Positions 4,176 to 56,811 of a DNA stretch of 64,000 nt are shown here, piece after piece (the stretch's first letter is position 1; each line of letters opens with the position of its first letter). This DNA is from Halichondria panicea (Eukaryota; Porifera; Demospongiae; Suberitida; Halichondriidae): contig NC_087384.1 of assembly GCF_963675165.1 (NCBI RefSeq), positions 6,007,182-6,071,181 of the forward strand, given 5' to 3'. The notes beneath the pieces are model-generated. The model ran no database searches, had not been told where the DNA came from, and saw only the letters and a program-made list of their open reading frames with translations. The position numbers and the translations under genes were made by a program.

Positions 4176-7100
4176 ATGGCTACAACGAATTTTGATACTC
4201 TGAAACAGAAGACTGGGGTAACAGACACCCAGCTAGACCAAAGAATTGAAGAAGATAAATTGTGGAGCCTGGCTGGTCTACTTGGCAGCTATGAAAAGTT
4301 TGTTAGAAGCCCAGTGTTTGGTCTCAATAATGCAGATGTAGAGGATCTGAAGGATTGTGCCTCCAAGCATGGAAATCAACAAGCCATGTATGAAGCTTTA
4401 AGGAAATGGGAAAACGTCATCCGTGACTTCACTTATCGGTCGTTGTTGAAGATTTTGATTAGTCTTCGTGAAGGAGCTTTGGCTGACCAAGTTTGTAGAA
4501 TTTGTGAGTTTAATATTTAATATCTACTTTCTGTGTTTCATCATTTCTTGTACTCCAGTCATCCAGACACAAGCCAGTGAGCCGAATAAAGAAGACGCTG
4601 TGTCCTTGTCATCTGCACCAGGTTAGTATAGCTCAGTATGAAGTTAAAGTTCTCATGCATATAAAAGGCGAAACTGTTTCTGTTCACCATTTTAAGATTC
4701 TAGCCATACTTTTAGGCTTTGCTAAGCTTTATTGGAGCTTATAAACCCAGCTCAGGAGCAACAACCTTAGAATCTGGGATATAGCAGCTTCAGTGCCGGA
4801 TGGGGGTGCTAAATCTGGGACAGTCCCGGCCATTCCGGGACAGTTGCCTTGGCACCTATGTATTAATCAGTTATAATTATATGCCAGTTGCAACAATGTG
4901 ATGTTCTTATACAGCACTGGCTACTGGGCACACTGTAGGATCATCTTCTCATCCAGTGAGTGCAGTTCTTCAACGACAGATGGACAAATATCAGCTCACT
5001 ACAGCCCAAGTCGACCATGAAATCCAGCAAAAAGACATACCATATTTGGCTGCTTACTGTGACAATGTGGAGATCTATGACGATGAGATGGAATTACGAC
5101 GTAGCAAGCAAGATAATCACCTAGCCATGATCAAGTACTTGAAAATCTGGAAAAGTAAGAAACTCTCACAAGCAACATTCAGGGCCCTTCTGGAGATGCT
5201 AATAAAGCTGGAGAAAGAGGCGATTACTGACGAAGTCTGTCAGTATATAAAGGTGAGTGTTTGTGTGTACGTCAAGCTATTTTGAATGGCACCAAACCTT
5301 ATCAATTGTATGGATGCATTGTACGTATGTCTGTCTAGCCCGTACTACACCAGAGAATCTGCCAGGGTCAAAAGACTGTTTCGCATTTGACATTAAAGTA
5401 AACAAAATATAGCTAGTATGAAATTTTAAAAATCAATGATTACCCTCGACAAACAAGCTGTAAGCGCGGGTATGTTATGATCTTTGAGACGCTTTTGAAA
5501 CGCATTACTTCAAGCTATTGATGTGCTTTCAGGCAATTCTTAGAGTTAGCATTACGTGTGTTAATTACTAATGCATTTGAGTCGAAGAACCTCTGCTACT
5601 ACACACTGCAATCAACATTGAGGGTAGTCGGCATAAAGTATGGGCGTGGTTGAGCATTCCTTATAATTGGTTGACAATAGATATATGCAAAGCAGGAGCA
5701 CATTACAGAAGCAGCGTCTTACCTCGGGAATCGCATCTCGTGCAAGTTTGCAAAGTAATTGGATATGCTCCTCTTTTAGAATTTTCTGTAACTCACCAAT
5801 GACTGTCTCTTCCATGATGTACCAACATTCATCAAAGATCTAGCTATTCATTTTAACTCTTTCTGGCTCACCCTAGCTCTCCTGCTGCTGCAGTACATAT
5901 AAAATCCATTCATAATGATATTCACAGGCTGACCGCGGTCTGTAATATGTACACAGTACTTACACACTTTTCTTATAAGGCAATGCGGCGTTTAGGAAAA
6001 CACACGAGATGCAATTTCCGAACCCATGCGGAGTTAGATGCTCCTTCTGTAATGTGCTCCTGGAAAAGCATGCATATACCATAATGTAGGAAACACTCAT
6101 GCAACCCCTCAACGTTCTTTGTTGATTAGTTTAATTGTGACTGAAGTTTCATTCAATACAGGAAATTCCCACCACATTTGTTGGAGAGGGATCACTTCGA
6201 GAGATGTCCGTGGCACGAGGGCAGGAACACATTACTGAACAAGCAGTTCTGTCACCTACCACAGAAGTAGATGCCCTACTATCAAGCAATGGATTGATGT
6301 ACAAAGACGTGAATAGGGAGTGCAGGGATGACCATATATTAGAGATTTCACAGCAGCTGGAACAATGGGAGCTAGTAGCAACACGGCTGGGATTAACCCT
6401 AGCTGAGATTGGAGCCATCAAATATAACAATCGGAGTATAGACATGATGAGATATAACACTCTTAAGAAATGGAAATCTAAGGCTCTACTCAGTGGAACA
6501 GCTACGTATCGAGTTCTACTACAAGCTTTGTTGGCTCTTAGCTGCAATGACTTAGCAAACCAAGTGTGCTCACTACTCAAGGAATCACTACGGGAATCAC
6601 TACTCAAACAAAGGCAACAGAGGAGGATATTCGACGATGCTCTAAGAGATGGCGCAGTCACTGTGAAAATAACTAATGCTCTAATTCAAGGAGAAGCGGG
6701 TGTTGGAAAAACATGCACCAAGCGCATTCTTTGTGATCAGGGCCGTCCGAGCTCTAGAGATAGCACTCCTCTCGCCGATATTTCTGTTCATGTTAGAGAT
6801 GTAACTGATGTCAAAATCCATTCTCAAAACAACAAATGGACAGAAGTGAATGAGGAAAAACTGCAAGACATTGTTGGAACTATGATTTCGATAGTTTGTA
6901 AAAATCGTTCGTTAAAGACATCAATCGATCAACAGTGGCAACACCGGAAAAAAGTACATTTCATTCCAGCTGATGATCTAGCTGGCAAACAACTACCACA
7001 GCCACTACCGGAACGAACAGTACCGAACCTATCTCTGAATGATGATGAACCAGAAACATTGCCACGGGCTGAATTTGAGTCACTGATTGATAATCTTCGG

Positions 7101-10100
7101 GATAAAGTAGCTGATTCACACCATCCAGGATCACAAGATGCACGAGAAATTCTAGGCTCCAACTGGATCTATTTAATCGACAGTGGAGGCCAGCCTCACT
7201 TCCACAATCTTCTACCTCATTTTGTGCATGGCATTAGCATTGCTTTGTTTACTCTGAAGCTTTCAGAACGATTGGACTCTCATTCTATGGTTGAGTATTA
7301 CGAACATGGCAAACTGATTTCGACTCCATACCGATCACCTCTTACAACTATTGATACCCTCAAGTGTCTCGTCCGCTCAATGCAGTCTCATACTATCGAT
7401 GGCGAAAAACCTACTCTTGTCATTGTAGGTACCTTTTTGGACGAGATCGAGAAATGTTCTGAAACTGTACAGGAAAAGAATGAGCGACTACTTAAAATTC
7501 TTTCACTAGAATTTACAGACCAGCTTTTCTTTTATAATGAAGCTGAAAACAATTTAATATTTGCTCTGAATGGAAAGGATCCAGGTCCTCATGAAGAAAC
7601 AATCGCTAAATTGATAAGATCTGTCATCGAAACTTCTCCTTCTAAAGTTATCAAAATGCCTATTTGGTGGTACGTGCTGGAGATATCGTTAAAAGAAATG
7701 TCAAGTCGTCTGAACAGAAAAGTGTTGAGCAAGCAAGAGTGTCTGGAAGTCGCAAAGCAAATACATATCGAAGAAGATGCACTTGTAGAGGCTTTGAAAT
7801 TCTTTCATGAACAACACATTTTTCACTACTATGTAGACATATTGCCTAATGTTGTCTTCACTAGCCCTCAAGTTCTCCTGGACAAGCTGACAGAGTTGGT
7901 CAAGGAAGCATACGATAAAAGGATTAAATCAACAACCACTACTGAACAGGCTCAAGTTGCGAAAGGAAAATGGCAGAAATTTCAAAATAATGGAATCATA
8001 ACACTGGAGTTTGTTGAATACTTTTCAAAGCACTACGTGGAAGGATTGTTTTCTCCACCCGACCTCCTCAAAATATTCATGAATCTTCTCATTCTAACAC
8101 CATTTTCGCCTACTGATTTCGAAATAGATTTCACATCACGTACAGCTCAGTACTTCATGCCTTCACTTTTGGATATGCTTCCACAAGACAAATTAATGGA
8201 ATATCGTGTTGTGTCTGTTTTAGCGAGTCCGTTGTTACTTAGATTCCCTAATGGTTGGCCACGTGCAGGAGTGTTTTGTTGCCTTCAAGTTTATCTGATT
8301 CGTCAGTTGGGTTGGAAGCTTCTGCTTATTAGGGGAAAGCCGAAACTAATTGCTCAGAATTGTGTGATGTTGTCTCCTCCAGGCAGTAGTTGCCGGGTTA
8401 CTCTGATCGACTCTTTTTCGATTGTTGAAGTACATGTCGAGGGAGACAAAGATGTTTGTTCTGCAATGTGTCCGACAATTCGAAATCAAATTGATACCGG
8501 AATACGTGCTTCTTGTCAATTACTTCGATACAGTGAGGAGCAACTACAGTTAGCTTTCTTTTGTCCTTGTACACTTTCTTCTTCACCACATTCTGAGGAA
8601 GTTCCTCATTTCCATGCTGCAATACTCTTGGAGGACGGCAATCAAAGATGCACTTTTGATGAGAGTATCACATCGAGGGTCCAGTCTGAAGAAATGATCT
8701 GGCTCCAAAATACAGGTGTGTAAGCATTATAATTGTATCTGCATAATTATAACACATCGTCTATGCTAATTATACAACAATGTGTATTTATTTCATCTTC
8801 CTATACAGCACCGGCTACTGGGCACACTGTAGGATCATCTTCTCAACCAGCGGGGACAGTTTTTCAACAGCTGATGGACAAATATCAGCTCAGTACTACT
8901 GCCCAAGCCAGTGAGCCGAAAAAAGAAGATCCTTCGTCTTCGTCACCTCCACCAGGTGTAGTAAATCAGCGTTTCTGTTCAGTATTCTAGCCGTAGTTCC
9001 AGGCTTGCTAAGCTTTATTTGGAGCTTATAGTAACCAGCTCAACCTTAGAATTCGGGATATGGAAAGCAGCTTCAGTGCTGGACGGGGATGCTAAATTGG
9101 GACGTACGGTCCCAGCTACATGTACAGTATAATTATAGCCTATTATATACATGTGTATATGCCAGTTGCAACAATGTCATGTTCTTATACAGCACCGGCT
9201 ACTGGGCACACTGTAGGATCATCTGCCCAACCAGTGAGTGCACGGCTGATGGACAAATATCAGCTCAGTACTACTGCCCAAGCCAGTGAGCCGAAAAAAG
9301 AAGATCCTTTGTCTTCCTTGCCTCCACCAGTACCAGGTGTAGTAAATCAGCATGGATGCATAAAGCTTTTCTGTTTAACGTTTTAATATTCTAGCCATAG
9401 TTCCAAGCTTCCTAAGAGGAGCTTATAGTAACCCAGCTACATATATGAAAGGTGAATAGCAGTTTCAGTGCCATACGGGGGTGCTAAATTGGGACAGTCC
9501 CGGCTACATGTATGTATTAAATATCGTATAGCGTGAAATTTTCAAGGGGCTTAATTTTCGTTGTTTTCGTGGGTTAACAATCCTACATGAAAATGAATTC
9601 CACAAAAATTCACTATAAAATTATTGTGAAGGCATGGCTTTCGGTAAGCTGTCCAACCCACAAGAGTGCCTCGAAAATTTCGCGCTATACGGTATAGGGC
9701 CTATTGTATATATGCCAGTTGTAACAATGTCATGTTCTCATACAGCATTGGCTACTGGGCACACTTCTGCTCAACCAGTGAGTACAGTTCTTCAACAGCT
9801 GATGGACAAATATCAGCTCACTAATTCACAAGTCAACCATGAAATCCAGCAAAAAGATGTATCATATTTGGCTGCTTACTTTGATAATGTGGAGCTCTAT
9901 GTCGATGCGATGGAATTATCATCTAGCGAGCAAAGTGATGTTTTGTTAAAAAGATTGGACGGTAACCACCTAGCCATGATCAAGTGCTTGAAAATCTGGA
10001 AAAGTAAGAAGCTCTCACAAGCGACATTCAGGGCCCTTCTTGAGATGTTAGTAAAGCTGAAGAAAGGGGAGATTGCTGACAACGTCTGTCATTACATAAA

Positions 10101-12116
10101 GGTGAGTGTTTGTGTGTGCCTAAATTTGTGCTTCGAGCTATTTTTACATCAATTGTGTGAGTGCACTGTATGTATGTCTAGCCCCTAGACTGCTTCGTGT
10201 TCGACATAGCTAGACTCGTAATTAGGCCTTACAACTGTAAAAATGTAGTTAACTAGTATGAAATTTAAAAATCAATGATACTCCTCGACGAACAAGCTGT
10301 AGGTGAGGGTATGAAAAATGTTGTGATCTTTGACCTTTTGGACTAAGTTAACGCTTTCGAAACGCATTACTTACAAGCATTTAATAACTTTAGTGCTGAT
10401 CACATGATCTCCAGCCAATCAGCTTATCTGAAAGTAGTCAGGTGACCATGGATTAAATAACTTAATCCACACTTAAGTGTGCTTTAAGTTGGTTTGTTAA
10501 TGCACACTTTTATCAAACAATCATAATACAAGCAGATTGAATCTGAATGTCATCATAATTATAATAATAATACAAGCAGATTGAATACGTACACAAGCAA
10601 AGCTGAAAAGTATTAGAAAGTTGAATGTTATTGTTTTGACTTGTTTCATGTGTACCGAATTGCTGACTTGACCATAGCATCACTTTTTCGTCTGGAGAAA
10701 TAGGCTCAGCTTGCTTCGAAGATGTACGTACCTGTACCTAAGCCAGATCCATATAATCGGTTCATCAAAGGTGCTTCGAATATCATAGCGTTCCAAAAGA
10801 GCAAACCAGATACTCATTGCCATATAGTTTGCGCACAAAGTTTCCCATCCAGTAAGCCAGATCAACTGGAGGCCTATCCAGTATATAGTGGGATCGGGAC
10901 TGTTGGTCAGCAGGAGAAATAAGTCGAGAACATGCCCAGTCAGTCCAGATAGCTTTAGATCGTATCTCCTTCTCCTTTGCATCAGTTACTGGATCTACAA
11001 ACCTACTAAAACTTGCTATTACGTCTAGCTAGCTAGCTAGCCACCAGCAACTGATTTAAAATGTAGCTAGATCTAGCTGCCACGAGGCTAGAGCTCACGT
11101 GACAGCACTAAATCCTTTAGAACATACCTAGCCAAGTCACGTGTTTTAATCTGATGCACTCGGATGGCCTCTCGGTTACGTAATGCACTCGGCTGCACCT
11201 CGAGCACCACGTTAACCTCGAGGCCATCCTCAGCACGCAGATTAATCTTGGCTAGGTGTGTTCTAAATAATACTTAAACTATTGATGTATTTTCAGGAAA
11301 TTCTTAGAGTTAGCATTGTGTGTGTTACGCATTTGAGTCGCAGAACCTCTGCTACTACACACACTACAAGAATCTTTGCAAAATCAAAGTTGAGGGTAGT
11401 CGGTAATATGGGCATAGTTAAGCATTCCGATTGATCACAGATAACACTAAGTAATGTTGCGATTCTATGCAAAGCGTATACACACTATAATGTATAATTT
11501 AGGGAACACTCATGCAACACCTCTGTTCTTTGTTCATTAGTGCTCAGCGAGATTGTGTATTTTGACTGATTCAATACAGGAAATTTCCACCACATCTGTT
11601 GGAGAGGGATCACTTCGAGAGATGTCTGTGGCACGAGGACATCATCACACTACTGAACAAGCAGTTCTGTCACCTACCACCGGCACCGAAGTAGTACGCC
11701 TCTCGAGAAAGCGATTAGTAAGAAGCGGAAGTGGGCGTGGGGACGAGGCTACAGAAATAGATGCCCTACTATCAAGCAATGGATTGACTTGCACAGACGG
11801 GAATAAGGAGTGCAAAGATGACCATATATTAAATGTTTCACTGAAGCTGGAACAATGGGAGCTAGTAGCAACGCGGCTGGGATTAACGTCAGCTGAGATT
11901 GAAGCCATCAAGGGTAACAATCAGACTGTAGAAATGATGAGATATAAAGCTCTGAAGAAATGGAAATCTAAGGCTCTATTCAGTGGAACAGCTACGTATC
12001 AAGTTCTACTGCAAGCTTTGTTGGCTCTTAGCTGCAATGACCAAGCCAAGCAAGTATGCTTACTACTCAAGAAATCACTAGAATGTCAACATAAAGTTCT
12101 TAAAATAGATAATTAG
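4176..12116 (+). CDS. Multi-Death-domain Roc/COR-like GTPase, copy A (intact)
   Basis: Eight exons keep one open frame of 1488 residues: 4176-4503, 4559-4621, 4915-5252, 6162-8715, 8809-8955, 9193-9336, 9746-10101 and 11580-12116. Order of parts: Death domain 1 (about 8-108), Ser/Pro linker, Death domain 2 (about 150-240), Death domain 3 (about 279-385), P-loop GTPase with GEAGVGKT at 420-427, DSGGQPH near 583 and VGTFLDE near 665, then a helical COR-like region (about 745-1010), two short linker exons, Death domain 4 (exon 7) and Death domain 5 (exon 8, C-terminal). Death domains act as homotypic adaptors in apoptosis and innate immunity; Roc-COR units are GTP-dependent dimerising switches. 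A cytosolic signalling scaffold is inferred. The ATG follows the shared promoter region. The call is from motifs; a STAND-type NTPase is the main alternative. Confidence 0.8.
5725..5815 (-). other. Possible minus-strand first exon inside the Death/GTPase gene (intron 3)
   Basis: An ATG at 5815 (minus) opens a helical, charged stretch starting MEETVIGELQKILKEE and running to a good GTAAGA donor at about 5724. The reading frame and donor are kept in copy B (ATG at 32074). No downstream exon was identified and no family was recognised, so this could be chance. Copy C lacks the region. Confidence 0.25.
8809..9745 (+). repeat. Duplicated exon-plus-intron modules in Death/GTPase A
   Basis: Exons 5 and 6 are chimeras: they start like a Death-domain exon (ATGHTVGSS...LMDKYQL) and jump into the exon 2 linker (QASEPKKEDP). 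Each is followed by an intron that resembles intron 2 (4622-4914), including shared blocks around GCTTTATTGGAGCTTATA and TGCCAGTTGCAACAATGT before the acceptor. The module has thus been copied within the gene, with the Death-domain core deleted. The arrangement is shared by copies B and C. Confidence 0.7.
9522..9696. mobile_element. Short inverted-repeat element (MITE) in intron 6, copy A
   Basis: The ends are inverted: ATATCGTATAGCGTGAAATT at the left and AATTTCGCGCTATACGGTAT at the right, with inner pieces resembling CGTTTTCGTGGGTTAAC. No coding capacity. The same insertion is at about 35794-35975 (B) and 45830-46012 (C), so it predates the duplications. It belongs to the same family as 27192-27400 and 22350-22555. 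Confidence 0.65.
10385..11275. mobile_element. Insertion unique to copy A, intron 7, with terminal hairpin
   Basis: About 890 bp present here has no counterpart in intron 7 of copies B and C, where the flanks join directly. Its right end holds a long hairpin: about 11118-11180 (AGAACATACCTAGCCAAG, GATGGCCTCTCGGTTAC) pairs with about 11210-11272 (GTTAACCTCGAGGCCATCC, CTTGGCTAGGTGTGTTCT). No transposase is visible. A short frame at 10722-10922 has no recognisable domain. Confidence 0.6.
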
Positions 12117-12296: not shown

Positions 12297-19620
<7,324 letters not shown>

Positions 19621-22245: not shown

Positions 22246-30217
<7,972 letters not shown>

Positions 30218-30378: not shown

Positions 30379-33300
30379 ATGGCTACAACGAATTTTGATA
30401 CTCTGAAACAGAAGACTGGGGTAACAGACACCCAGCTAGACCAAAGAATTGAAGAAGATAAATTGTGGAGCCTGGCTGGTCTACTTGGCAGCTATAAAAA
30501 GTTTGTTAGAAGCTCAGGGTTTGATCTCAATAATGCAGATGTAGAGGATCTGAAGGATTGTGCCTCCAAGCATGGCAATCAACAAGCCATGTATGAAGCT
30601 TTAAGGAAATGGGAAAACGTCATCCGTGACTTCACTTATCGGTCATTGTTGGAGATTTTGATTAGTCTTCGTGAAGGAGCTTTGGCTGACCAAGTTTGTA
30701 GAATTTGTGAGTTTAATATTTAATATCTATTTTCTGTGTTTCATCATTTCTTGTACTCCAGTCATCCAGACACAAGCCAGTGAGCCGAATAAAGAAGACG
30801 CTGTGTCCTTGTCACCTGCACCAGGTTAGTATAGCTCAGTATGAAGTTAAAGTTCTCATGCATATAAAAGGCGAAACGGTTTCTGTTCACCATTTTAAGA
30901 TTCTAGCCATACTTTTAGGCTTTGCTAAGCTTTATTGGAGCTTATAAACCCAGCTCAGGAGCAGCAACCTTAGAATCTGGGATATAGCAGCTTCAGTGCC
31001 AGATAGGGGTGCTAAATCTGGGACAGTCCCGGCCATTCCGGGACAGTTGCCTTGGCACCTATGTATTAATCAGTTATAATTATATGCCAGTTGCAACAAT
31101 GTTATGTTCTTATACACAGCATTGGCTACTGGGCACACTGTAGGATTATCTTCTAAACCAGTGAGGGCAGTTCTTCAACAGCTGATGGACAAATATCAGC
31201 TCACTACAGCCCAAGTCGACCATGAAATCCAGCGAACGGACTTACCAATTTTGGCTGCGTGCTTTGATGATGTGGAGCTCTATGTCGATGCTATGGAATT
31301 AACACCTGGCGAGCAAAGTGATGTTTTGTTAAAAAGATTGGAAAGTAACCACCTAGCCACGATCATGTGCTTGAAGATCTGGAAAATAAATAAGCGCTTA
31401 CAAGCAACATTCAGGGCCCTTCTGGAGATGCTAATAAAGCTGAAGAAATGGGCGATTGCTGAAAAAGTCTGCATAGTGAGTGTTTGTGTGTACGTCAAGC
31501 TATTTTGAATGGCACCAAACCTTATCAATTGTATGGATGCATTGTACGTATGGATGCATTGTATGTATGTCTGTCTAGCCCGTACTACACCAGAGGATCT
31601 GCCAGGGTCAAAAGACTGTTTCGCATTTGACATTAAAGTAAACAAAATATAGCTAGTATGAAATTTTAAAAATCAATGATTACCCTCGACAAACAAGCTG
31701 TAAGCGCGGGTATGAAAAAATGTTATGATCTTTGACACGCTTTTGTAACGCATTACTTACAAGCATTAATAATTATTGATGTGTTTTCAGGCAATTCTTA
31801 GAGTTAGCATTATGTGTGCTAATTAACTAACGCATTTGAGTCGAAGAACCTCTGCTACTACACACTGCAATCAACATTGAGGGTAGTCGGCATAAAGTAT
31901 GGGCGTGGTTGAGCATTCCTTATAATTGGTTGACAATAGATATATGCAAAGCAGGAGCACATTACAGAAGGAGCGTCTTACCTCGGGAATCGCATCTCGT
32001 GCAAGTTTGCAAAGTAATTGGATATGCTCCTCTTTTAGAATTTTCTGTAACTCACCAATGACTGTCTCTTCCATGATGTACCAACATTCATCAAAGATCT
32101 AGCTATTCATTTTAACTCTTTCTGGCTCACCCTAGCTCTCCTGCTGCTGCAGTACATATAAAATCCATTCATAATGATATTCACAGGCTGACCGCGGTCT
32201 GTAATATGTACACAGTACTTACACACTTTTCTTATAAGGCAATGCGGCGTTTAGGAAAACACACGAGATGCAATTTCCGAACCCATGCGGAGTTAGATGC
32301 TCCTTCTGTAATGTGCTCCTGGAAAAGCATGCATATACCATAATGTAGGAAACACTCATGCAACCCCTCAACGTTCTTTGTTGATTAGTTTAATTGTGAC
32401 TGAAGTTTCATTCAATACAGGAAATTCCCACCACATTTGTTGGAGAGGGATCACTTCGAGAGATGTCCGTGGCACGAGGGCAGGAACACATTACTGAACA
32501 AGCAGTTCTGTCACCTACCACAGAAGTAGATGCCCTACTATCAAGCAATGGATTGATGTACAAAGACGTGAATAGGGAGTGCAGGGATGACCATATATTA
32601 GAGATTTCACAGCAGCTGGAACAATGGGAGCTAGTAGCAACACGGCTGGGATTAACCCTAGCTGAGATTGAAGCCATCAAATATAACAATCGGAGTATAG
32701 ACATGAGGAGATATAACACTCTTAAGAAATGGAAATCTAAGGCTCTACTCGGAACAGCTACGTATCGAGTTCTACTACAAGCTTTGTTGGCTCTTAGCTG
32801 CAATGACTTAGCAAACCAAGTGTGCTCACTACTCAAGGAATCACTACGGGAATCACTACTCAAACAATGGCAACAGAGGAAGATATTCGACGATGCTCTA
32901 AGAGATGGCGCAGTCACTGTGAAAATAACTAATGCTCTAATTCAAGGAGAAGCGGGTGTTGGAAAAACATGCACCAAGCGCATTCTTTGTGATCAGGACC
33001 GTCTGAGCTCTAGAGATAGCACTCCTCTCGCCGATATTTCTGTTCATGTTAGAGATGTAACTGATGTCAAAATCCATTCTCAAAACAACAAATGGACAGA
33101 GGTGAATGAGGAAAAACTGCAAGACATTGTTGGAACTATGATTTCGATAGTTTGTAAAAATCGTTCGTTAAAGACATCAATCGATCAACAGTGGCAACAC
33201 CAGAAAAAAGTACATTTCATTCCAGCTGATGATCTAGCTGGCAAACAACTACCACAGCCACTACCGGAACGAACAGTACCGAACCTATCTCTGAATGATG

Positions 33301-36300
33301 ATGAACCAGAAACATTGCCACGGGCTGAACTTGAGTCACTGATTGATAATCTTCGGGATAAAGTAGCTGATTCACACCATCCAGGATCACAAGATGCACG
33401 AGAAATTCTAGGCTCCAACTGGATCTATTTAATCGACAGTGGAGGCCAGCCTCACTTCCACAATCTTCTACCTCATTTTGTGCATGGCATTAGCATTGCT
33501 TTGTTTACTCTGAAGCTTTCAGAACGATTGGACTCTCATTCTATAGTTGAGTATTACGAACATGGCAAACTGATTTCGACTCCATACCGATCACCTCTTA
33601 CAACTATTGATACCCTCAAGTGTCTCGTCCGCTCAATGCAGTCTCATACTATCGATGGCGAAAAACCTACTGTTGTCATTGTAGGTACCTTTCTGGACGA
33701 GATCGAGAAATGTTCTGAAACTGTACAGGAAAAGAATGAGCGACTACTTAAAATTCTTTCACTAGAATTTACAGACCAGCTTTTCTTTTATAATGAAGCA
33801 GAAAACAATTTAATATTTGCTCTAAATGGAAAGGATCCAGGTCCTCATGAAGAAACAATCGCTAAATTGATAAGATCTGTCATCGAAACTTCTCCTTCTA
33901 AAGTTATCAAAATGCCTATTTGGTGGTACGTGCTGGAGATATCGTTAAAAGAAATGTCAAGTCGTCTGAACATAAAAGTGTTGAGCAAGCAAGAGTGTCT
34001 GGAAGTCGCAAAGCAAATACATATCGAAGAAGATGCACTTGTGGAGGCTTTGAAATTCTTTCACGAACAACATATTTTTCACTACTATGTAGACATCTTG
34101 CCTAACGTTGTCTTCACTAGCCCTCAAGTTCTCCTGGACAAGCTGACAGAATTGGTCAAAGAAGCGTATGATAAAAGGATTAAATCTACCACTACTGGAC
34201 AGGCTCAAGTTGCGAAAGGAAAATTGCAGAAATTTCAAAATAAGGGGATTATAATGCTAGAGTTTGTTGAACATTTTACTAAGCACTACGTGAAAGAATT
34301 GTTTTCTCCACCCGACCTCCTCAAATTATTTATGAGTCATCTCATTCTAACACCATTTTCGCCTACAGATTCTGAAATAGATTTCACATCACGTACGGCT
34401 CAATACTTCATGCCCTCACTTTTGGATATGCTTCCACAAGACAAATTAATGGAATATCGTGTTGTGTCTGTTTTAGCGAGTCCGTTGTTAATTAGATTCC
34501 CTAATGGTTGGCCACGTGCAGGAGTGTTTTGTTGCCTTCAAGTTTATCCTGATTCATCAGTTGGGTTGGAAGCTTCTGCTTTTTAGGGGAAATCCGAAAC
34601 TAATTGCTCAGAATTGTGTACTGTTGTCTCCTCCAGGCAGTAGTTGCCGGGTTACTCTGATCGACTCTTTTTCGATTGTTGAAATACACGTGAATGGAGG
34701 CAAAGATGTTTGTTCTGCAATGTGTCCAATAATTCGCAATCAAATTGATATCGGAATACGTGCTTCTTGTCAATTACTTCGATACAGTGAGGAGCAACTG
34801 CAGTTAGCTTTCTTTTGTCCTTGTACACTTTCTTCTTTATCACATTCTGAGGAGGTTCCTCATTTCCATGCTGCAATACTCTTGGAGGACGGCAATCAAA
34901 GATGCACTTTTGATGAGAGTATCATATCGGAGGTCCAGTCTGAAGAAATGATCTGGCTCCAAAATACAGGTGTGTAAGCATTATAATTGCACCTGCATAT
35001 AACACATCGTCTATGCTAATTATACAACAATGTGTATTTATTTCATGTTCTCATACGTGCAGCACCGGCTACTGGGCACACTGTAGGATCATCTTCTCAA
35101 CCAGTGGGGACAGTTTTTCAACAGCTGATGGGCAAATATCAGCTCAGTACTACTGCCCAAGCCAGTGAGCCGAAAAAAGAAGATCCTTCGTCTTCGTCAC
35201 CTCTACCAGGTGTAGTAAATCAGTATAGATGCGTTTCTGTTCAGTATTCTAGCCGTAGTTCCAGGCTTGCTAAGCTTTATTTGGAGCTTATAGTAACCAG
35301 CTCAACCTTAGAATTCGGGATATAGAAAGCAGCTTCAGTGCTGGACGGGGATGCTAAATTGGGACATACGTCCCAGCTACATGTACAGTATAATTATAGC
35401 CTATTATATACATGTATATGCCAGTTGCAACAATGTCATGTTCTTATACAGCACCGGCTACTGGGCACACGTAGGATCATCTGCCCAACCAGTGGGCACA
35501 CGGCTGATGGACACATGTCAGCTCAGTACTACTGCCCAAGCCAGTGAGCCGAAAAAAGAAGATCCTTTGTCTTCCTTGCCTCCACCAGTACCAGGTGTAG
35601 TAAATCAGCATTGATGCATAAAGCTTTTCTGTTTAACGTTTTAATATTCTAGCCATAGTTCCAATTTAAAGCTTCCTAACTTTATTGGAGCTTATAGTAA
35701 CCCAGCTACATATATGGAAGGTGAATAGCAGTTTCAGTGTCAGACGGGGGTGCTAAATTGGGACAGTCCCGGCTACATGTATGTATTAAATATCGTATAG
35801 CGTGAAATTTTCAAGGGGCTTAATTTTCGCTGTTTTTGTGGGTTAACAATCCTACATGAAAATGAATTCCACAAAAATTCGCTATAATGTGAAAAGATTA
35901 AAGGCGTGGCTTTCGGTAAGCTGTCCAACCCACAAGAGTGCCTCGAAAATTTCGCGCTATATATACGGTATAGGGCCTATTGTATATATGCCAGTTGTAA
36001 CAATGTCATGTTCTCATACAGCATTGGCTACTGGGCACACTTCTGCTCAACCAGCGAATGCAGTTCTTCAACAGTTGATGGACAAATATCAGCTCACTAC
36101 TTTCCAAATCGACCGTGAAATCCAGCAAAAAGACATATCATATTTGGCTGCCTGGTTTGACAATGTGGAGTACTATGTCGATGCGATGGAATTATCACCT
36201 GGTGAACAAAGCAATGCCCGGAAAACAGAAAGTAACCACCTAGCCATGATCATGTGTTTGAAAATCTGGAAAAGAAAGAAGCTCTCACAAGCGACATTCA

Positions 36301-37535
36301 GGGCCCTTCTCGAGATGTTGGTAAAGCTGAAGAAAGGGGAGATTGCTGACAACGTCTGTCATTACATAAAGGTGAGTGTTTGTGTGCATGTGCCTAAATT
36401 TGTACTTCGAGCCAAACCTTACATCAATTGTGTGAGTGCACTGTATGTATGTCTAGCCCCTAGACTGTTTCGTGTTCGACATAGCTAGACTCGTAATTAG
36501 GCCTTACAACTGTAAAAATGTAGTTAACTAGTATGAAATTTAAAAATCAATAATACCCCTCGACGAACAAGCTGTAGGTGAGGGTATGAAAAATGTTGTG
36601 ATCTTTGACCTTTTGGACTAAGTTAACGCTTTCAAACGCATTACTTACAAGCTTAATTACTATTGATGTGTTTTCAGGCAATTCTTAGAGTTAGCATTGT
36701 GTGTGTTTATTAACTAACGCATTATTTTTGAGTCGAGGAACCTCTGCTACTACACACACTACAAGAATCTTTGCAAAATCAAAAATCAAAGTTGAGGGTA
36801 GTTGGCATAAAATTTATGGGCATAGTTAAGCATTCCTTATAATTGATTGACCACAGATAACACTGTGAGTAATGTTGCGATTCCATGTAAAGCGTACACA
36901 CCATAATGTATAATTTAGGGAACACTCATGCAACACCTCTGTTCTTTGTTCATTAGTGCTCAGCGAGATTGTGTATTTTGACTGTATTATCTAATTCAAT
37001 ACAGGAAATTCCCACCACATCTGTTGAAGAGGGATCACTTCGAGGGATTTCTGTGACACGAGGGCAGCAACACATTACTGAACAAGCAGTTCTGTCACCT
37101 ACCACCGAAGTAGTAGGCCTCTCGAGAAAGCGATTAGTAAGAAGCGGAAGTGGGCGTGGGGACGAGGCTACAGAAGTAGATGCCCTACTATCAAGCAATG
37201 GATTGACCTGCACAGACGGGAATAAGGAGTGCAAAGATGACCATATATTAAATATTTCAGAGCAGCTGGAAAAGTGTGAGCTAGTAGCAACGCGGCTGGG
37301 ATTAACGCCAGCTGAGATTGAAGCCATCGAATATAATAATCGGACCATAGAAATGATGAGATATAAAACTCTTAAGAAATGGAAATGTAAGGCTCTACTC
37401 AGTGGAACAGCTACATATCGAGTTCTACTACAAGCTTTGTTGGATTGTGGCTGCAATGACCAAGCAAAGCAAGTGTGCTCACTGCTCAAGGAATCACTAG
37501 AATGTCAACATAAAGTTATTAAAATAGATAATTAG
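30379..37535 (+). pseudogene. Multi-Death-domain Roc/COR-like GTPase, copy B (frameshifted)
   Basis: The exon layout matches copy A: 30379-30706, 30762-30824, 31120-31475, 32421-34969, 35063-35209, about 35454-35596, 36022-36371 and 37005-37535. Exons 1-3 are intact; exon 3 lost 9 bases at its end but kept its phase. Exon 4 is open through the P-loop (GEAGVGKT), DSGGQPH and COR-like region until an extra C at about 34549 (TATCCTGATTC against TATCTGATTC in A and C) shifts the frame and gives a stop at 34584-34586, about 707 residues after MSVARG. Exon 6 has a 1-base loss (CACACGTAGG) that also makes a stop, but it is phase-symmetric and could be skipped. The result is either a truncated Death-Death-Death-GTPase-COR protein without the two C-terminal Death domains, or a pseudogene; a sequencing error at 34549 is possible. 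Confidence 0.75.
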
Positions 37536-37731: not shown

Positions 37732-40487
<2,756 letters not shown>

Positions 40488-41539: not shown

Positions 41540-44500
41540 CCCAAACTCTCTTAAAAATGTGTACACAGCTCTATTTAAAGTAGCTGATCAATGGTTTAAT
41601 CTTGGCCTTCAACTTGACGTTGACTCAAATGACCTAAAAAGGATTCACAGCACGCTCCAAAACAATACAGAGAAACTGCGTGAGATGCTCACTGTGAGGT
41701 TAGCCCAAGGAGATTTGACTTGGGATCAAATTACAGAGGCTCTAGAAAATCGTACTATTGGCCAACAAGTTATTGCCAATGAAATAAGAAGTAAACATAT
41801 CACACCAGTAGAGAGAGGTAAATAGTGCAACTATACTACAATGTATATATACAAATCAATGGTGCAAGCTGCGCTGTGCTAATGTGCCTCTTGGGAAGAG
41901 GTCATTGTATTTTGTATAATTATCACGAATCACGAAATAAATGTTTGCATTTGCAATAATTAAACCACAATTTAGAGCAACAAGTAACGTAGCTTAATGA
42001 TAAAAGTTAAATAGTGCAAACAGATGATGCTATAAAAGATTCTGAAAAGACTAGAGCAGCCTTCAGTTTGCAAATCCACGAATTAAAATCCAAGAGAGCT
42101 AGAAAGAAGCCTGCATGTAGAATAATTACATGCATGTTAGTTTTAGTTCATAGGGTTATATCTCACAGAGGGTACATACATAGTGATGAATTATGTGATC
42201 TCAAATTAACGGACAGTCCCGGGACAGTTGCCTTTGCACCTATGTATATATACAAGAGTTCATTATATCAGATAGCTATTCGTTACAACAATGTCATGAT
42301 CTTATACAGCACCGGCTACTGGGCACACTGTAGGATCATCGGCTCAATTTTTTCAGCAGCTGATGGATAAATATCAGCTCACTACTGCCCAAATCGATCG
42401 TGAAATCCAACAGGAAGATGTACCAATTTTGGCTGCTTACTTTGATAATGTGGATCACTATATTGATGCGATGGAATTATCACGTAGCGAGCGAAGTGAT
42501 GTTCGGTTGAAAGGTAACCACCACCTAGCTATGATCGAGTGTTTGAAAATCTGGAGAAGTAAGAACCCCTCACAAGCGACATTCAGGGCCCTTCTGGATA
42601 TGCTAGTTAAGCTGAAGAAATGGGCGATTGCTGCCCGAGTCTGTCAGTACTTAAAGGTGGGGGTTTTGTGTGTACCATAATTTGTGTACGTCAAGCTATT
42701 TTGAATTAGCACCAATTAAACCTTACTAACGTTGTGATTTATAATTAATGCCCATAGTCTTATCGTGTATGTGTGAGTGCACTCTGTGTGTTGACACATT
42801 ATTGTGCACTCGATTGCATATTGGGAACTGATAAGCACTCACTTAGTAACCAACAGTTCAGGTTTGCTTCATTCCATGATGTTTTTCCTCATAATAATTT
42901 ATTATAGGAAGCACAGCTGCAGGAAACGCTAAACCAGCAATTACAAAATAAGAAAACATTCGACGATGCTCTAAGAGATGGAATAGTAACTGTGAAAATA
43001 ACTAATGCTCTAATTCAAGGAGAAGCAGGTGTTGGAAAAACATGTACCAAGCGCATTCTTTGTAATCAGGGCCCTGCCAGCTCTAGAGATAGCACTCCTC
43101 TTGCTGATATTTCTGTTCATGTTAGAGATGTAACTGATGTCAAGGTCCATTCTCAAAACAAAAAATGGAAGGAAGTAAATGAGGAAAAACTACAAGACAT
43201 TGTTCAAGCTATGATTTCAGGCGTAATTAGAGAAATGCAAAGAAAAAATCCCCCAATACACGAAAATGTAGCAACAATAATTGAAGATCCAGCTGGTACT
43301 AGCGAACCGAGTCAAAATCCAACTCTACCAGAATTGTTAGAGAATACTGAAAAATCTACCACAGCATTGCCACAGGCTGAACTGGAGTCACTGATTGATA
43401 ATCTTCGTGATAAAGTAGTTGATTCACGTCATCCAAGCTCACAAGATGCACAGGAAATTCTAGGCTCCAACTGGATCTATTTTATCGACAGTGGTGGCCA
43501 GCCTCACTTTCACAATCTTTTACCACATTTTGTACATGGCATTAGCATTGCTTTGTTTACTCTGAAGCTTTCTGAACGATTGGACTCTCATTCTATAGTT
43601 GAGTATTACGAAAACGACAAACTGATTTCAACTCCATACCAATCACCTCTTACAACTATTGATACCCTCAAGTGTCTCGTCCGCTCAATGCAATCTCATA
43701 CTATCAATGGCGAAAAACCTACTCTTGTCATTGTAGGTACCTTTCTGGACGAAACAAAGAAAAGTTCTGAAACTGTACAAGAAAAGAATGAACGTCTACT
43801 TAAAAATTTTTCGCTAGAATTTACAGACCAGCTTGTCTTCTATAATGAAGCTGAGAACAAATTAATATTTTCTCTGAATGGAAAGGATCCAGGTGCTCAT
43901 GAAGAAAGAATTGCTGAAATGATCAGATCTGTCGTCGAAGATTCTCCTTCTAAAGTTATTGAAATGCCAATTCGATGGTACGTGCTGGAGATATCGTTAA
44001 AAGAAATGTCAAGTCGTCTGAACAGAAAAGTGTTGAGCAAGCAACAGTGTCTGGAAGTTGCAAAGAAAATACATATCGAAGAAGATGCACTTGTGGAGGC
44101 TTTGAAATTCTTTCACGAACAACATATTTTTCACTACTATGTAGATATCTTGCCTAACGTTGTCTTCACTAGCCCTCAAGTTCTCCTGGACAAGCTGACA
44201 GAATTGGTCAAGGAAGCATACGATAAAAGGATTAAATCAACCACTACTGGACAGGCTCAAGTTTCCAAAGGAAAATGGCAGAAATTTCAAAATAAGGGAA
44301 TTATAACGCTAGAGTTTGTTAAATACTTTTCAAAGCACTACGTGGAAGGGTTGTTTTCTCCACCCGACCTCCTCAAAATATTCATGAGTCATCTCATTCT
44401 AACACCATTTTCGCCTACATATTCTGAAATAGATTTCACATCACGTACGGCTCAGTACTTCATGCCCTCACTTTTGGATATGCTTCCACAAGACAAATTA

Positions 44501-47500
44501 ATGGAATATCGTGTTGTGTCTGTTTTAGCGAGTCCGTTGTTAATTAGATTCCCTAATGGTTGGCCACGTGCAGGAGTGTTTTGTTGCCTTCAAGTTTATC
44601 TGATTCATCAGTTGGGTTGGAAGCTTCTGCTTTTTAGGGGAAATCCGAAACTAATTGCTCAGAATTGTGTAATGTTGTCTCCTCCAGGCAGTAGTTGCCG
44701 GGTTACTCTGATCGACTCTTTTTCGATTGTTGAAGTACACGTGAATGGAGGCAAAGATGTTTGTTCTGCAATGTGTCCAATAATTTGCAATCAAATTGAA
44801 ACCGGAATACGTGCTTCTTGTCGAACACTTCGATACAGTGAGGATCAGCTGCAGTTAGCTTTTTTCTGTCCTTGTACACTTTCTTCTTTACCACATTCTG
44901 CGGAGGTTTCTCGTTTCCATGCCGCAGTACTCTTGAAGGACGGCAATCTAAGATGCACTTTTGATGAGAGTATCATATCGGAGGTCCAGTCTGAAGAAAT
45001 GATCTGGCTCCAAAATACAGGTGTGTAAGCATTATAATTGTATCTGCATATAACACATCGTCTATGCTAATTATACAACAATGTGTATTTATTTCATGTT
45101 CTTATACATGCAGCACCGGCTACTGGGCACACTGTAGGATCATCTTCTCAACCAGTGGGCACAGTTTTTCAACAGCTGATGGACAAATATCAGCTCAGTA
45201 CTACTGCCCAAGCCAGTGAGCCGAAAAAAGAAGATCCTTCGTCTTCGTCACCTCCACCAGGTGTAGTAAATCAGTATGGATGCGTTTCTGTTCAGTATTC
45301 TAGCCGCAGGCTTGCTAAGCTTTATTTGGAGCTTATAGTAACCAGCTCAACCTTAGAATTCGGGATATGGAAGGCAGCTTCAGTGCTGGGCGGGGATGCT
45401 AAATTGGGACGTACGGTCCCAGCTACATGTACAGTATAATTATAGCCTATTATATACATGTGTGTATGCCAGTTGCAACAATGTCCTGTTCTTATACAGC
45501 ACCGGCTACTGGGCACACTGTAGGATCATCTGCCCAACCAGTGAGTGCACGGCTGATGGACAAATATCAGCTCAGTACTACTGCCCAAGCCAGTGAGCCG
45601 AAAAAAGAAGATCCTTTGTCTTCCTTGCCTCCACCAGGTGTAGTAAATCAGCATGGATGCATAAAGCTTTTCTGTTTAACGTTTTAATATTCTAGCCGTA
45701 GTTCCAAGCTTCCTAACTTTATTGGAGCTTATAGTAACCCAGCTACATATATGAAAGGTGAATAGCAGTTTCAGTGCCATACGGGGGTGCTAAATTGGGA
45801 CAGTCCCGGCTACATGTATGTATTAAATATCGTATAGCGTGAAATTTTCAAGGGGCTTAATTTTCGCTGTTTTCGTGGGTTAACAATCCTACATAAAAAA
45901 TGAATTCCACAAAAATTCGCTATAATGTGAAAAGATTAAAGGCGTGGCTTTCGGTAAGCTGTCCAACCCACAAGAGTGCCTTGAAAATTTCGCGCTATAT
46001 ATACGGTATAGGGCCTATTGTATATATGCCAGTTGTAACAATGTCATGTTCTCATACAGCATTGGCTACTGGGCACACTTCTGCTCAATCAGCGAATGCA
46101 GTTCTTCAACAGCTGATGGACAAATATCAGCTCACTAATTCACAAGTCAACCATGAAATCCTGCAAAAAGACGTGCCATATTTGGCTGCCTGGTTTGATA
46201 ATGTGGAGCTCTATGTCGATGCGATGGAATTATCACCTAGCGAGCAAAGTGATGTTTTGATGAAAAAATTGGACAGTAACCACCTAGCCATGATCAAGTG
46301 CTTGAATATCTGGAAAAGAAGGAAGCTTTCACAAGCGACATTCAGGGCCCTTCTGGAGATGTTAGTAAAGCTGAAGAAAGAGGCGATTGCTGACGACATC
46401 TGTCAGTATATAAAGGTGAGTGTTTGCGTGTGCCTGAATTTGTACGTCGAGCTATTTTACCAAACCTTACATTAATTGTGTGAGTGCACTGTATGTCTGT
46501 CTAGCCCCTAGACTGTTTCGTGTTCGACTCGTAATTATGTTTAGTGATACGCGAGGTAGTTCTCAACTGTGCCCTTGATGGCCTTACAACTGGTAGCTTA
46601 GTATGAACCCTAAAACTCAGTGATACCCCTCGACAAACAAGCTGTAAGTGAGGGTATGAAAAATGTTGTGATCTTTGGACTAAGTTAACGCTTTTGAAAC
46701 GCATACTTACAAGCATTAATAACCTTCAATGGTGTTTTCAGGCAATTCTTGAGGTTAGCATTGTGTGAGTAACTAACGCATTTGAGTCGAAGAACCTCTG
46801 CTACTAGCTATACACACTACAAGAATCTTTGCAAAATCAAAAAGTTAAGGGCTGTGAGTAATGTTGCGATTCCACGCGTACACACCATAATGTACACACC
46901 ATAATGTATAATTTAGGGTACACTCATGCAACACCAGTTCATTAGTGCTCAGAGATTGTGTATTTTGACTGTATTATCTGAACTTTCATTCAATACAGGA
47001 AATTCCCACCACATCTGTTGAAGAGGGAGAGATGCAATCACTTCGAGGGATATCCATGCCGCGAGGGCAGGAACACACTACTGAACAAGCAGTTCCGTCA
47101 CATACCACCGAAGTAGCAGGCCTCTCGAGAAAGCGATTAGTAAGGAGCGGAAGTGGGCGTGGGGACGAGGCTACAAAAGTAGATGCCCTACTATCAAGCA
47201 ATGGATTGACTTGCACAGACGGGAATAAGGAGTGCAAAGATGACCATATATTAAATATTTCAATGCAGCTGGAACAATGGGAGCTAGTAGCAACGTGGCT
47301 AGGATTAACGGCAGCTGAGAGAGAAGCCATCAAGGGTAACAATCAGACCATAGAAATGATGAGATATAACACTCTTAAGAAATGGAAATCTAAGGCTCTA
47401 CTCAGTGGAACAGCTACGTATCGAGTTCTACTACAAGCTTTGTTGGATTGTGGCTGCAATGACCAAGCTAAGCGAGCGTGCTCACTACTCAAGAAATCAC

Positions 47501-47538
47501 TAGAATGTCAACATAAAATTATTAAAATAGAGAATTAG
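41540..47538 (+). CDS. Multi-Death-domain Roc/COR-like GTPase, copy C (rearranged 5' end)
   Basis: Exons 41540-41817, 42310-42656, 42908-45020, 45114-45260, 45500-45637, 46060-46415 and 46999-47538 have continuous phases. The first encodes a Death domain (VYTALFKVADQWFNLGLQLD...) not close to exon 1 of copies A and B; its upstream exon was not found. The second is the usual MDKYQLTTAQ Death domain. The large exon starts with EAQLQETLNQQLQNKK and lacks Death domain 3; it then carries GEAGVGKT, DSGGQPH, VGTFLDE and the COR-like region, all open. The linker exons and the two C-terminal Death domains follow as in copy A. The region between GTPase motifs G1 and G3 differs most from copies A and B. 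Same inferred role as copy A; it looks functional. Confidence 0.75.
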
Positions 47539-47689: not shown

Positions 47690-49981
<2,292 letters not shown>

Positions 49982-56240: not shown

Positions 56241-56485
56241 GCCAATTTCCACCACAATTATCACCACAACAGAAAACATATCACCACAACTGACAACATT
56301 ATCACCACCAGTTGCCCAAGGGACAGATATATACATGGAAGGCTATAAAATTGCTGAAAACAGAATGACAGAGAAAGCGTATGAAGATAGAGACTGTCGA
56401 TCATCATGTGTAGATATACTGCATGTGTGTCTAAGTGTATATATATATTTTGAACAAACTCTGTCACATACTACACATTTTAAAG

Positions 56486-56811
56486 TAGATGCCCTACCAT
56501 TAAGTAATAGATTGACGTGCAAAAACGTGAATATAGAGTGCAGCGATGACCATATATTAAAGATTTCACAGCAGCTGGAAAAATGGGAGCTAGTAGCAAC
56601 GCGGCTGGGATTAACGGCAGCTGAGATTGAAGCTATCGAATATAATAATCGGAATATAGAAATGATGAGATTGAACTGTCTTAAGAAATGGAAATCTAAG
56701 GCTCTACTCAGTGGAACAGCTACGTATCAAGTTCTACTACAAGCTTTGTTAGATTGTGGCTGCAATGACCAAGCCAAGCAAGTGTGCTCACTACTCAACA
56801 CTACTGAATAG
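56486..56811 (+). pseudogene. Orphan last Death-domain exon of the GTPase family (copy D)
   Basis: From about 56486 the frame matches the final exon of the Death/GTPase genes: VDALPLSNRLTC, DDHILKISQQLEKWELVATR, LGLTAAEIEAIEYNN, ALLSGTATYQVLLQALLDC, CNDQAKQVCSLL, then NTTE and a TAG at 56809-56811. The open frame extends upstream to about 56335 through unrelated sequence. There is no GTPase or other family exon nearby, nor the usual GAAATTCCCACC acceptor, so it is a stranded fragment, or the end of an unknown short gene. The Death domain itself is intact. Confidence 0.65.

Follow-up and report, generated by a model that had tools for sequence, protein, structure and literature searches.

A predicted sponge gene in which Death domains flank a divergent Roco-like GTPase

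Roco proteins are known from LRRK2 in Parkinson's disease and from DAPK1, which carries ankyrin repeats, in cell death. How their GTP switch controls the partner domains is an unsettled question. DAPK1 is placed in Roco group 3 (PMC6337361). In Trichoplax at least 17 ROCO genes are reported, with CARD and death domains among those found around ROC-COR (PMC4104024). Kinase-Roc/COR-Death-TIR transcripts, named NG3, occur in sea anemones (PMC5094078), and Aplysia has MyD88/TLR-like proteins with ROCO domains as well as MyD88-like death-like domains (PMC9334734). In brown algae, LRR-ROCO genes, of which there are 9 to 47 per species, are candidate immune receptors; the COR profile was matched in 18 of 111 of these genes, COR often being missed, and N-terminal death domains in ROCOs are mentioned (PMC11378527). 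Here we describe a predicted gene of the sponge Halichondria panicea, in which five Death domains surround a GTPase with a COR-like region. It lies in a stretch of 64,000 nucleotides, hereafter the window (C8:6007182-6071181, where C8 is contig NC_087384.1), and the genome scanned comprises 131.5 Mb in 39 contigs.

The gene, referred to as copy 1, had been placed at positions 4176-12116 by the initial annotation, and these limits proved correct. On the forward strand, seven exons are joined by six GT-AG introns with fitting phases, resulting in a predicted protein of 1467 amino acids without internal stops that ends at a TAG at 12116. The order is Death, Death, Death with a P-loop/DSGGQ GTPase and a COR-like region, two linker exons, Death, Death (Table 1). 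The phase-matched seven-exon model bears out, as a prediction, the proposal that three Death domains, a Roc/COR-like part and two further Death domains belong to one gene. Only Death domain 3, the GTPase and the COR-like region share an open frame, that of exon 3, which encodes 851 amino acids; the four other Death exons were joined to them via splice sites, phase and the layout in relatives. We read copy 1 as encoding a divergent Roco protein with Death domains on both sides that would act as a GTP-switched Death platform, and give this reading as a whole a probability of roughly 0.6.

The five Death domains were assessed by a profile search of the exons, as had been proposed with the initial annotation. 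Pfam Death (PF00531) was the top match in exons 1, 2, 3, 6 and 7 (E=3.4e-3 to 5.4e-8), and exons 3 and 7 passed the curated cut-off. In tblastn searches, exon 1 found exons 2, 3 and 6 (exon 6 at E=2.3e-9) and exon 7 found exon 1. Two types can be told apart, an A-type (exons 1, 2 and 6 and their relatives) and a B-type (the head of exon 3, exon 7 and their relatives). The short exons 4 and 5 are fragments of an exon 2-type unit and carry no Death domain. For the B-type, Pfam Death was matched in all nine members, and a profile of this type found the death domains of RIPK1 (E=7.5e-6), CRADD, TNFRSF25 and FADD in the PDB; two designed pentatricopeptide proteins ranked higher (E=1.2e-9 and 4.8e-8), with no single stretch passing. 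For the A-type, Pfam Death was matched in eight of nine members (best E=4.3e-4), and CRADD was the only death domain match in the PDB (E=0.075).

The assignment of the GTPase rests on a chain of profile comparisons. The P-loop, the DSGGQ motif and the G4 motif, GTFLD in the window, follow one another in this order, and their positions are conserved in an alignment of 30 members, which takes in the window copies and a partial open reading frame (ORF) of locus L015 without G1. The G4 motif of Roco proteins is of the THxD type; locus L039 carries GTHLD. In blastp, the window ORF matched locus L044 with E=8.3e-23, and the COR-A match of L044 lies above the cut-off. In hhalign, the family profile aligned with 12 COR-A-positive ORFs over 484 columns (E=8.7e-47), spanning G3, G4 and the COR regions, and these 12 ORFs in turn aligned with two LRR-Roc-COR-kinase ORFs (E=4.2e-20). 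The 12 ORFs had been picked for COR-A above the cut-off; when seven were rescanned whole, four passed and three fell below. By these chained profiles the protein appears to be a divergent member of the Roco family (Roc-COR, also called AP-GTPase), with the caveat that the direct comparison is weak. The Roc/COR label of the initial annotation is supported by chained profiles; in the direct Pfam comparison, Roc reached 15.5 bits (cut-off 27) and neither COR-A nor COR-B was reported for the window protein.

The GTPase might instead come from another P-loop family, such as a STAND or AAA-like one, that reached DxGGQ by convergence, but this seems very improbable. Such a family would fit the weak and mixed Pfam matches, which include AAA and nSTAND3, and the PDB profile search, which gave no significant match (best Rab-like 3, E=0.037) and had HslU, an AAA protein, among the weak ones. 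Against it stand the 484-column hhalign chain via COR-A-positive ORFs and the fact that Roc is the most frequent weak Pfam match among the 30 members (10 of 30, best E=8.4e-4); COR-A was matched in one of 30 (E=0.044). A PDB search with the single protein gave 0 matches, and a protein search of a plasmid collection gave none. In both the window family and the COR-A-positive ORFs, the COR part is followed by a tail with conserved Cys and His and a final Trp, which could be a small metal-binding module.

GTPases of this kind are numerous in the genome. A first GTPase query gave at least 80 matches, made up of 65 main places (65 scored among 314 candidates) and 15 short side matches; 64 of the 65 main places are free of internal stops. 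A second search, started from the COR-positive side, yielded at least 58 rows (57 scored among 341 candidates), eight with internal stops, which merged to 55 places. The two sets do not overlap, so that at least 120 non-overlapping GTPase loci are present, some of which may be pseudogenes. A D-x-GGQP-(H/Q)-FH DNA pattern occurs at 86 genome sites, and the reversed pattern used as control at 0. COR-A was matched 70 times in the genome, 25 times above the cut-off.

The layout of these relatives bears on how the two-sided arrangement arose. With our own Death profile, a Death domain was found downstream of the GTPase exon at 10 of 27 loci outside the window (L012-L038) and upstream at none of the 27, within about 1.5 kb; the C-terminal exons are therefore likely part of the gene. 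In a paralogue at C8:5.78 Mb, the GTPase is followed first by an A-type and then by a B-type Death domain, and none was found in the 3.76 kb upstream. Using Pfam Death (148 matches listed among 503 candidates), we found a Death domain within 5 kb downstream at no fewer than 5 of 65 loci of the first query, at least 3 of 55 of the second and at least 7 of 25 with COR-A above the cut-off. The corresponding upstream counts, among the matches listed, are at least 2 of 65, 1 of 55 and 3 of 25. The COR-A and second-query lists have three loci in common, and both upstream-Death loci of the first query are window copies 1 and 2. On contig C12, the region 1.04-2.08 Mb holds 31 Death matches, of which three follow second-family GTPase ORFs at a distance of about 2 kb.

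Alternatively, two genes might lie here, one with three Death domains and Roc-COR ending near exons 3-5 and a separate two-Death adaptor formed by exons 6 and 7. In favour of this, an in-frame ATG just 5' of exon 6 is present in all three copies (MPVVTMSCSHTAL). Against a division, exon 3 ends in a phase-1 donor, exons 4, 5 and 6 fit this phase, and the stop that follows exon 3 is intronic. The same-strand Death exons downstream of 10 of 27 relatives also speak for one gene, and no opposite-strand Death domain was found within 5 kb (start to start) at the loci of the three lists, among the matches listed. We consider the two-gene alternative quite unlikely. Judged by the relatives, having Death domains at the C-terminus looks like a trait of the family, and those at the N-terminus in the window look like a local gain. 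Most simply, the N-terminal set is a copy of the C-terminal pair made by exon duplication, and the ancestral order in the clade was probably Roc-COR-Death(A)-Death(B).

The tandem copies in the window were compared with each other. The ratio of nonsynonymous to synonymous substitution (dN/dS) is 0.29-0.41 for the GTPase part and 0.41-1.18, where defined, for pairs of Death exons. When copy 1 is compared with copy 2, identity is lowest in three 80-base segments, two in exon 2 (79 and 80%) and one in exon 6 (76%), and most segments of the introns flanking these exons are at 98-100%. Identity is also lowered in segments of the COR region (86-94%), of exon 7 (88-98%), of a few introns and of the 3' flank (89-91%), but not in exon 1 (95-100%) or in the Death domain of exon 3 (98-100%). 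Synonymous divergence is 0.18 in exon 2 and 0.23 in exon 6, compared with differences of 1.7% in intron 1, 1.3% in intron 2 and 4.2% in intron 5. Intron 6 aligned at 77%, owing to a length difference of 845 bases between the copies, its 80-base segments being at 91-99%. Positive selection alone was set aside as the cause of the Death-exon divergence, since the synonymous sites of exons 2 and 6 have also diverged and the introns are near-identical. For the same reason, cassette exchange or homogenised flanks are the preferred reading; cassettes that were imported, or that are old and have been retained, within flanks that were homogenised appear to fit better.

In the three copy pairs, 6 of 8, 7 of 9 and 7 of 11 exon indels are divisible by three, compared to 3 of 23, 5 of 21 and 9 of 25 intron indels. 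The exceptions in exons are single bases in copy 2 and two indels of copy 3, of lengths 14 and 4, that lie in its exon 3. These data are relevant to a possible, if somewhat unlikely, account in which the gene is an ordinary member of an expanded Roc-COR-Death family and tandem duplication recently left it with additional Death exons at the N-terminus, as a selectively neutral by-product. A dN/dS near 1 for the Death type of exons 3 and 7 is in line with it, as are the similarity of copies 1-3, the broken state of copy 2 and the lack of an upstream Death domain within 1.5 kb in all 27 relatives. On the other hand, the Death exons remain open, every indel between copies in exons 2, 6 and 7 is a multiple of three, and Death domain 3 is in frame with the GTPase in copies 1 and 2.

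Several observations weigh against the reading of copy 1 as a divergent Roco protein with Death domains on both sides. Three of the five Death domains lie below the Pfam cut-off, and there is no significant direct Roc or COR match to the window protein in Pfam. The direct hhalign comparison of the family with the LRR-Roc-COR-kinase ORFs is weak (E=0.057, probability below 1%). As judged by dN/dS, the Death exons are little constrained, so that some may be decaying. The frame is broken in copy 2, where a real break and an assembly error are both possible, and no exon 1 was found in copy 3. In exon 6, the identity of copies 1 and 3 (91-95%) is no lower than in the flank downstream of it (69-90%), which speaks against a general claim of divergence islands. 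Three other Roc/COR loci, one on C1 and two on C4, have an upstream Death domain within 5 kb; N-terminal Death domains thus arose or exist outside the window cluster. Finally, the Death trees are largely unresolved, with none of five inner branches supported for the A-type and one of five for the B-type, which unites exon 3 of copy 1 with that of copy 2 (99/99), so that the direction in which exons were copied is taken from the layout in relatives.

By its domain anatomy, the protein is most naturally read as a nucleotide-gated Death-domain scaffold. It would be a cytosolic GTP switch in which Roc-COR controls the pairing and exposure of the Death domains. Once switched on, the Death domains could nucleate a signalling platform to which adaptors, kinases or caspase-linked partners are drawn. 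Death exons of both C-terminal types now also precede the GTPase, which might raise the valency or allow matching Death domains at the two ends to hold each other clamped until the GTPase switches. The protein may bind such partners, hydrolyse GTP and act in immunity, cell death or allorecognition; both the size of the family and the divergence of its Death exons suggest that it serves in immune, cell-death or self/non-self signalling.

The idea in the initial annotation that such a sensor replaces NLR-type logic could not be upheld. The genome holds at least 102 NACHT matches, all above the cut-off (102 scored among 265 candidates), and in one sponge 128 DEATH and 230 NACHT genes are reported (PMC12909245). 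In the window ORFs scanned, neither NACHT nor LRR was matched. A clustering of the 86 GTPase motif sites with NACHT was tried with these at least 102 matches, some contig sizes being estimated. It could not be shown, with 1 site versus 2.05 expected within 10 kb and 6 versus 3.3 within 20 kb; within 50 kb there were 16 versus 6.4 expected (p=0.057). One NACHT match (C8:5790507-5790971, +) lies about 4 kb from the closest paralogue outside the window (C8:5784239-5786203, -), in divergent orientation. We regard as unlikely in its full form the further idea that Roc-COR/Death proteins are a second large intracellular signalling system beside NLRs, within which one cluster set copies of its own Death domains across the switch and so made a self-clamped, GTP-released scaffold of five Death domains, and in which the output interface and not a ligand-binding repeat has been diversified. 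A family of at least 120 loci, with Death domains on one side at some and on both sides in the window cluster, would permit a comparative test of the switch and would bring GTPase-based platforms, beside NLRs, into the early animal immune repertoire.

The neighbourhood of the gene is duplicated as well. A SANBR BTB exon lies 3' of copy 1 (window 13448-13696, Pfam E=3.5e-17), and the DNA next to it is repeated at 39031-39223 (92%) and 48911-49103 (88%), 3' of copies 2 and 3. The duplicated unit therefore exceeds the Death/GTPase gene. The window also contains a BCAS3 WD40 exon (24249-24794, -; Pfam E=2e-28), an ORF present at both 3-530 and 25158-25700 that has a hydrophobic stretch at its N-terminus and gave no Pfam match in the copy scanned, and a repeat array at 28251-29107 with a spacing of mostly 68 bases. 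Together with the presence of introns, the SANBR BTB and BCAS3 WD40 matches are in keeping with an animal genome. Two more Death matches (C8:6129683-6129886 and 6138883-6139083) lie about 60-70 kb past the end of the window, which suggests that the cluster extends further.

Table 1. Exons, motifs and further copies in the window, with positions counted from its first nucleotide.
Feature	Position	Strand	Description
Exon 1	4176..4503	+	Start codon, Death domain 1; Pfam Death E=6.4e-4, 20.2 bits (cut-off 22.6)
Exon 2	4915..5252	+	Death domain 2, A-type; Pfam Death E=8.3e-4; 68% amino acid identity with exon 6
Exon 3	6162..8715	+	Death domain 3 (about 6333-6560, E=9e-6), GTPase and COR-like region in a single open frame
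G1 / P-loop GEAGVGKT	6690..6713	+	Conserved in 30-member alignment
G3 DSGGQ	7179..7193	+	Conserved in 30-member alignment
G4 GTFLD	7428..7442	+	GTHKD in 10/30 and GTHSD in 1/30 members
COR-A-like region (approximate)	7659..8165	+	hhalign onto Pfam COR-A stretch of L044 (225-369)
COR-B-like region and conserved Cys/His/Trp tail (approximate)	8166..8715	+	30-member alignment, hhalign
Exon 4	8809..8955	+	Linker; resembles start of exon 2-type unit; Pro/Ser-rich end
Exon 5	9193..9336	+	Second linker, like exon 4
Exon 6	9746..10101	+	Death domain 4, A-type; Pfam Death E=3.4e-3 (whole ORF), 8.5e-4 (trimmed)
Exon 7	11580..12116	+	Death domain 5, B-type, and stop; Pfam Death E=5.4e-8, 33.3 bits; 67% amino acid identity with head of exon 3
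Copy 2	30379..37535	+	7/7 exons; frame break in exon 3 near 34580; exon 5 shifted by one base
Copy 3	42310..47538	+	Exon 1 not found; Death exon 42310-42656
Copy 3 (continued)		+	GTPase exon open from 42908, without own Death domain; then linkers
Copy 3 (continued)		+	Death exons 46060-46415 and 46999-47538
Lone B-type Death domain exon	56440..56796	+	From possible fourth copy

Known Roco proteins with a Death domain had been taken to carry a single one. This background is too narrow in view of the CARD/death ROCOs of Trichoplax (PMC4104024) and the sea anemone transcripts (PMC5094078). No protein with five Death domains, or with Death domains flanking Roc-COR, was found in the text covered of the open-licence literature, which is no proof of absence. 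The bacterial AP-GTPase-COR conflict systems share with copy 1 a GTPase switch-COR core with effector modules, but, as far as described in the text available, they are prokaryotic and LRR-bearing and have diverse effectors (PMC8195603). The brown algal LRR-ROCO genes resemble the window family as expanded Roco genes with exon-level diversification; there it is the LRR exons that vary, whereas here the Death exons differ and LRR is unmatched (PMC11378527). The sea anemone NG3 and Aplysia proteins are like copy 1 in that Roc/COR is joined to Death or TIR, but they have other partners, and Death arrays are not mentioned in the available text (PMC5094078, PMC9334734). The ROCO genes of Trichoplax come close to the window family as a multi-gene set of animal ROC-COR proteins amid death-fold domains. 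Compared by text, they number at least 17 versus at least 120 GTPase loci here, and five Death domains are not mentioned in the portion available (PMC4104024). No kinase or ankyrin match was obtained in the seven ORFs scanned (exons 1-4, 6 and 7). DAPK1 differs from copy 1 by its N-terminal kinase and its one Death domain, compared to five on both sides of the GTPase in copy 1. Like copy 1, it has Roc-COR followed by a C-terminal Death domain (PMC6337361), and this DAPK-type feature, a Death domain C-terminal to COR, is present in exons 6 and 7 of the predicted sponge gene.

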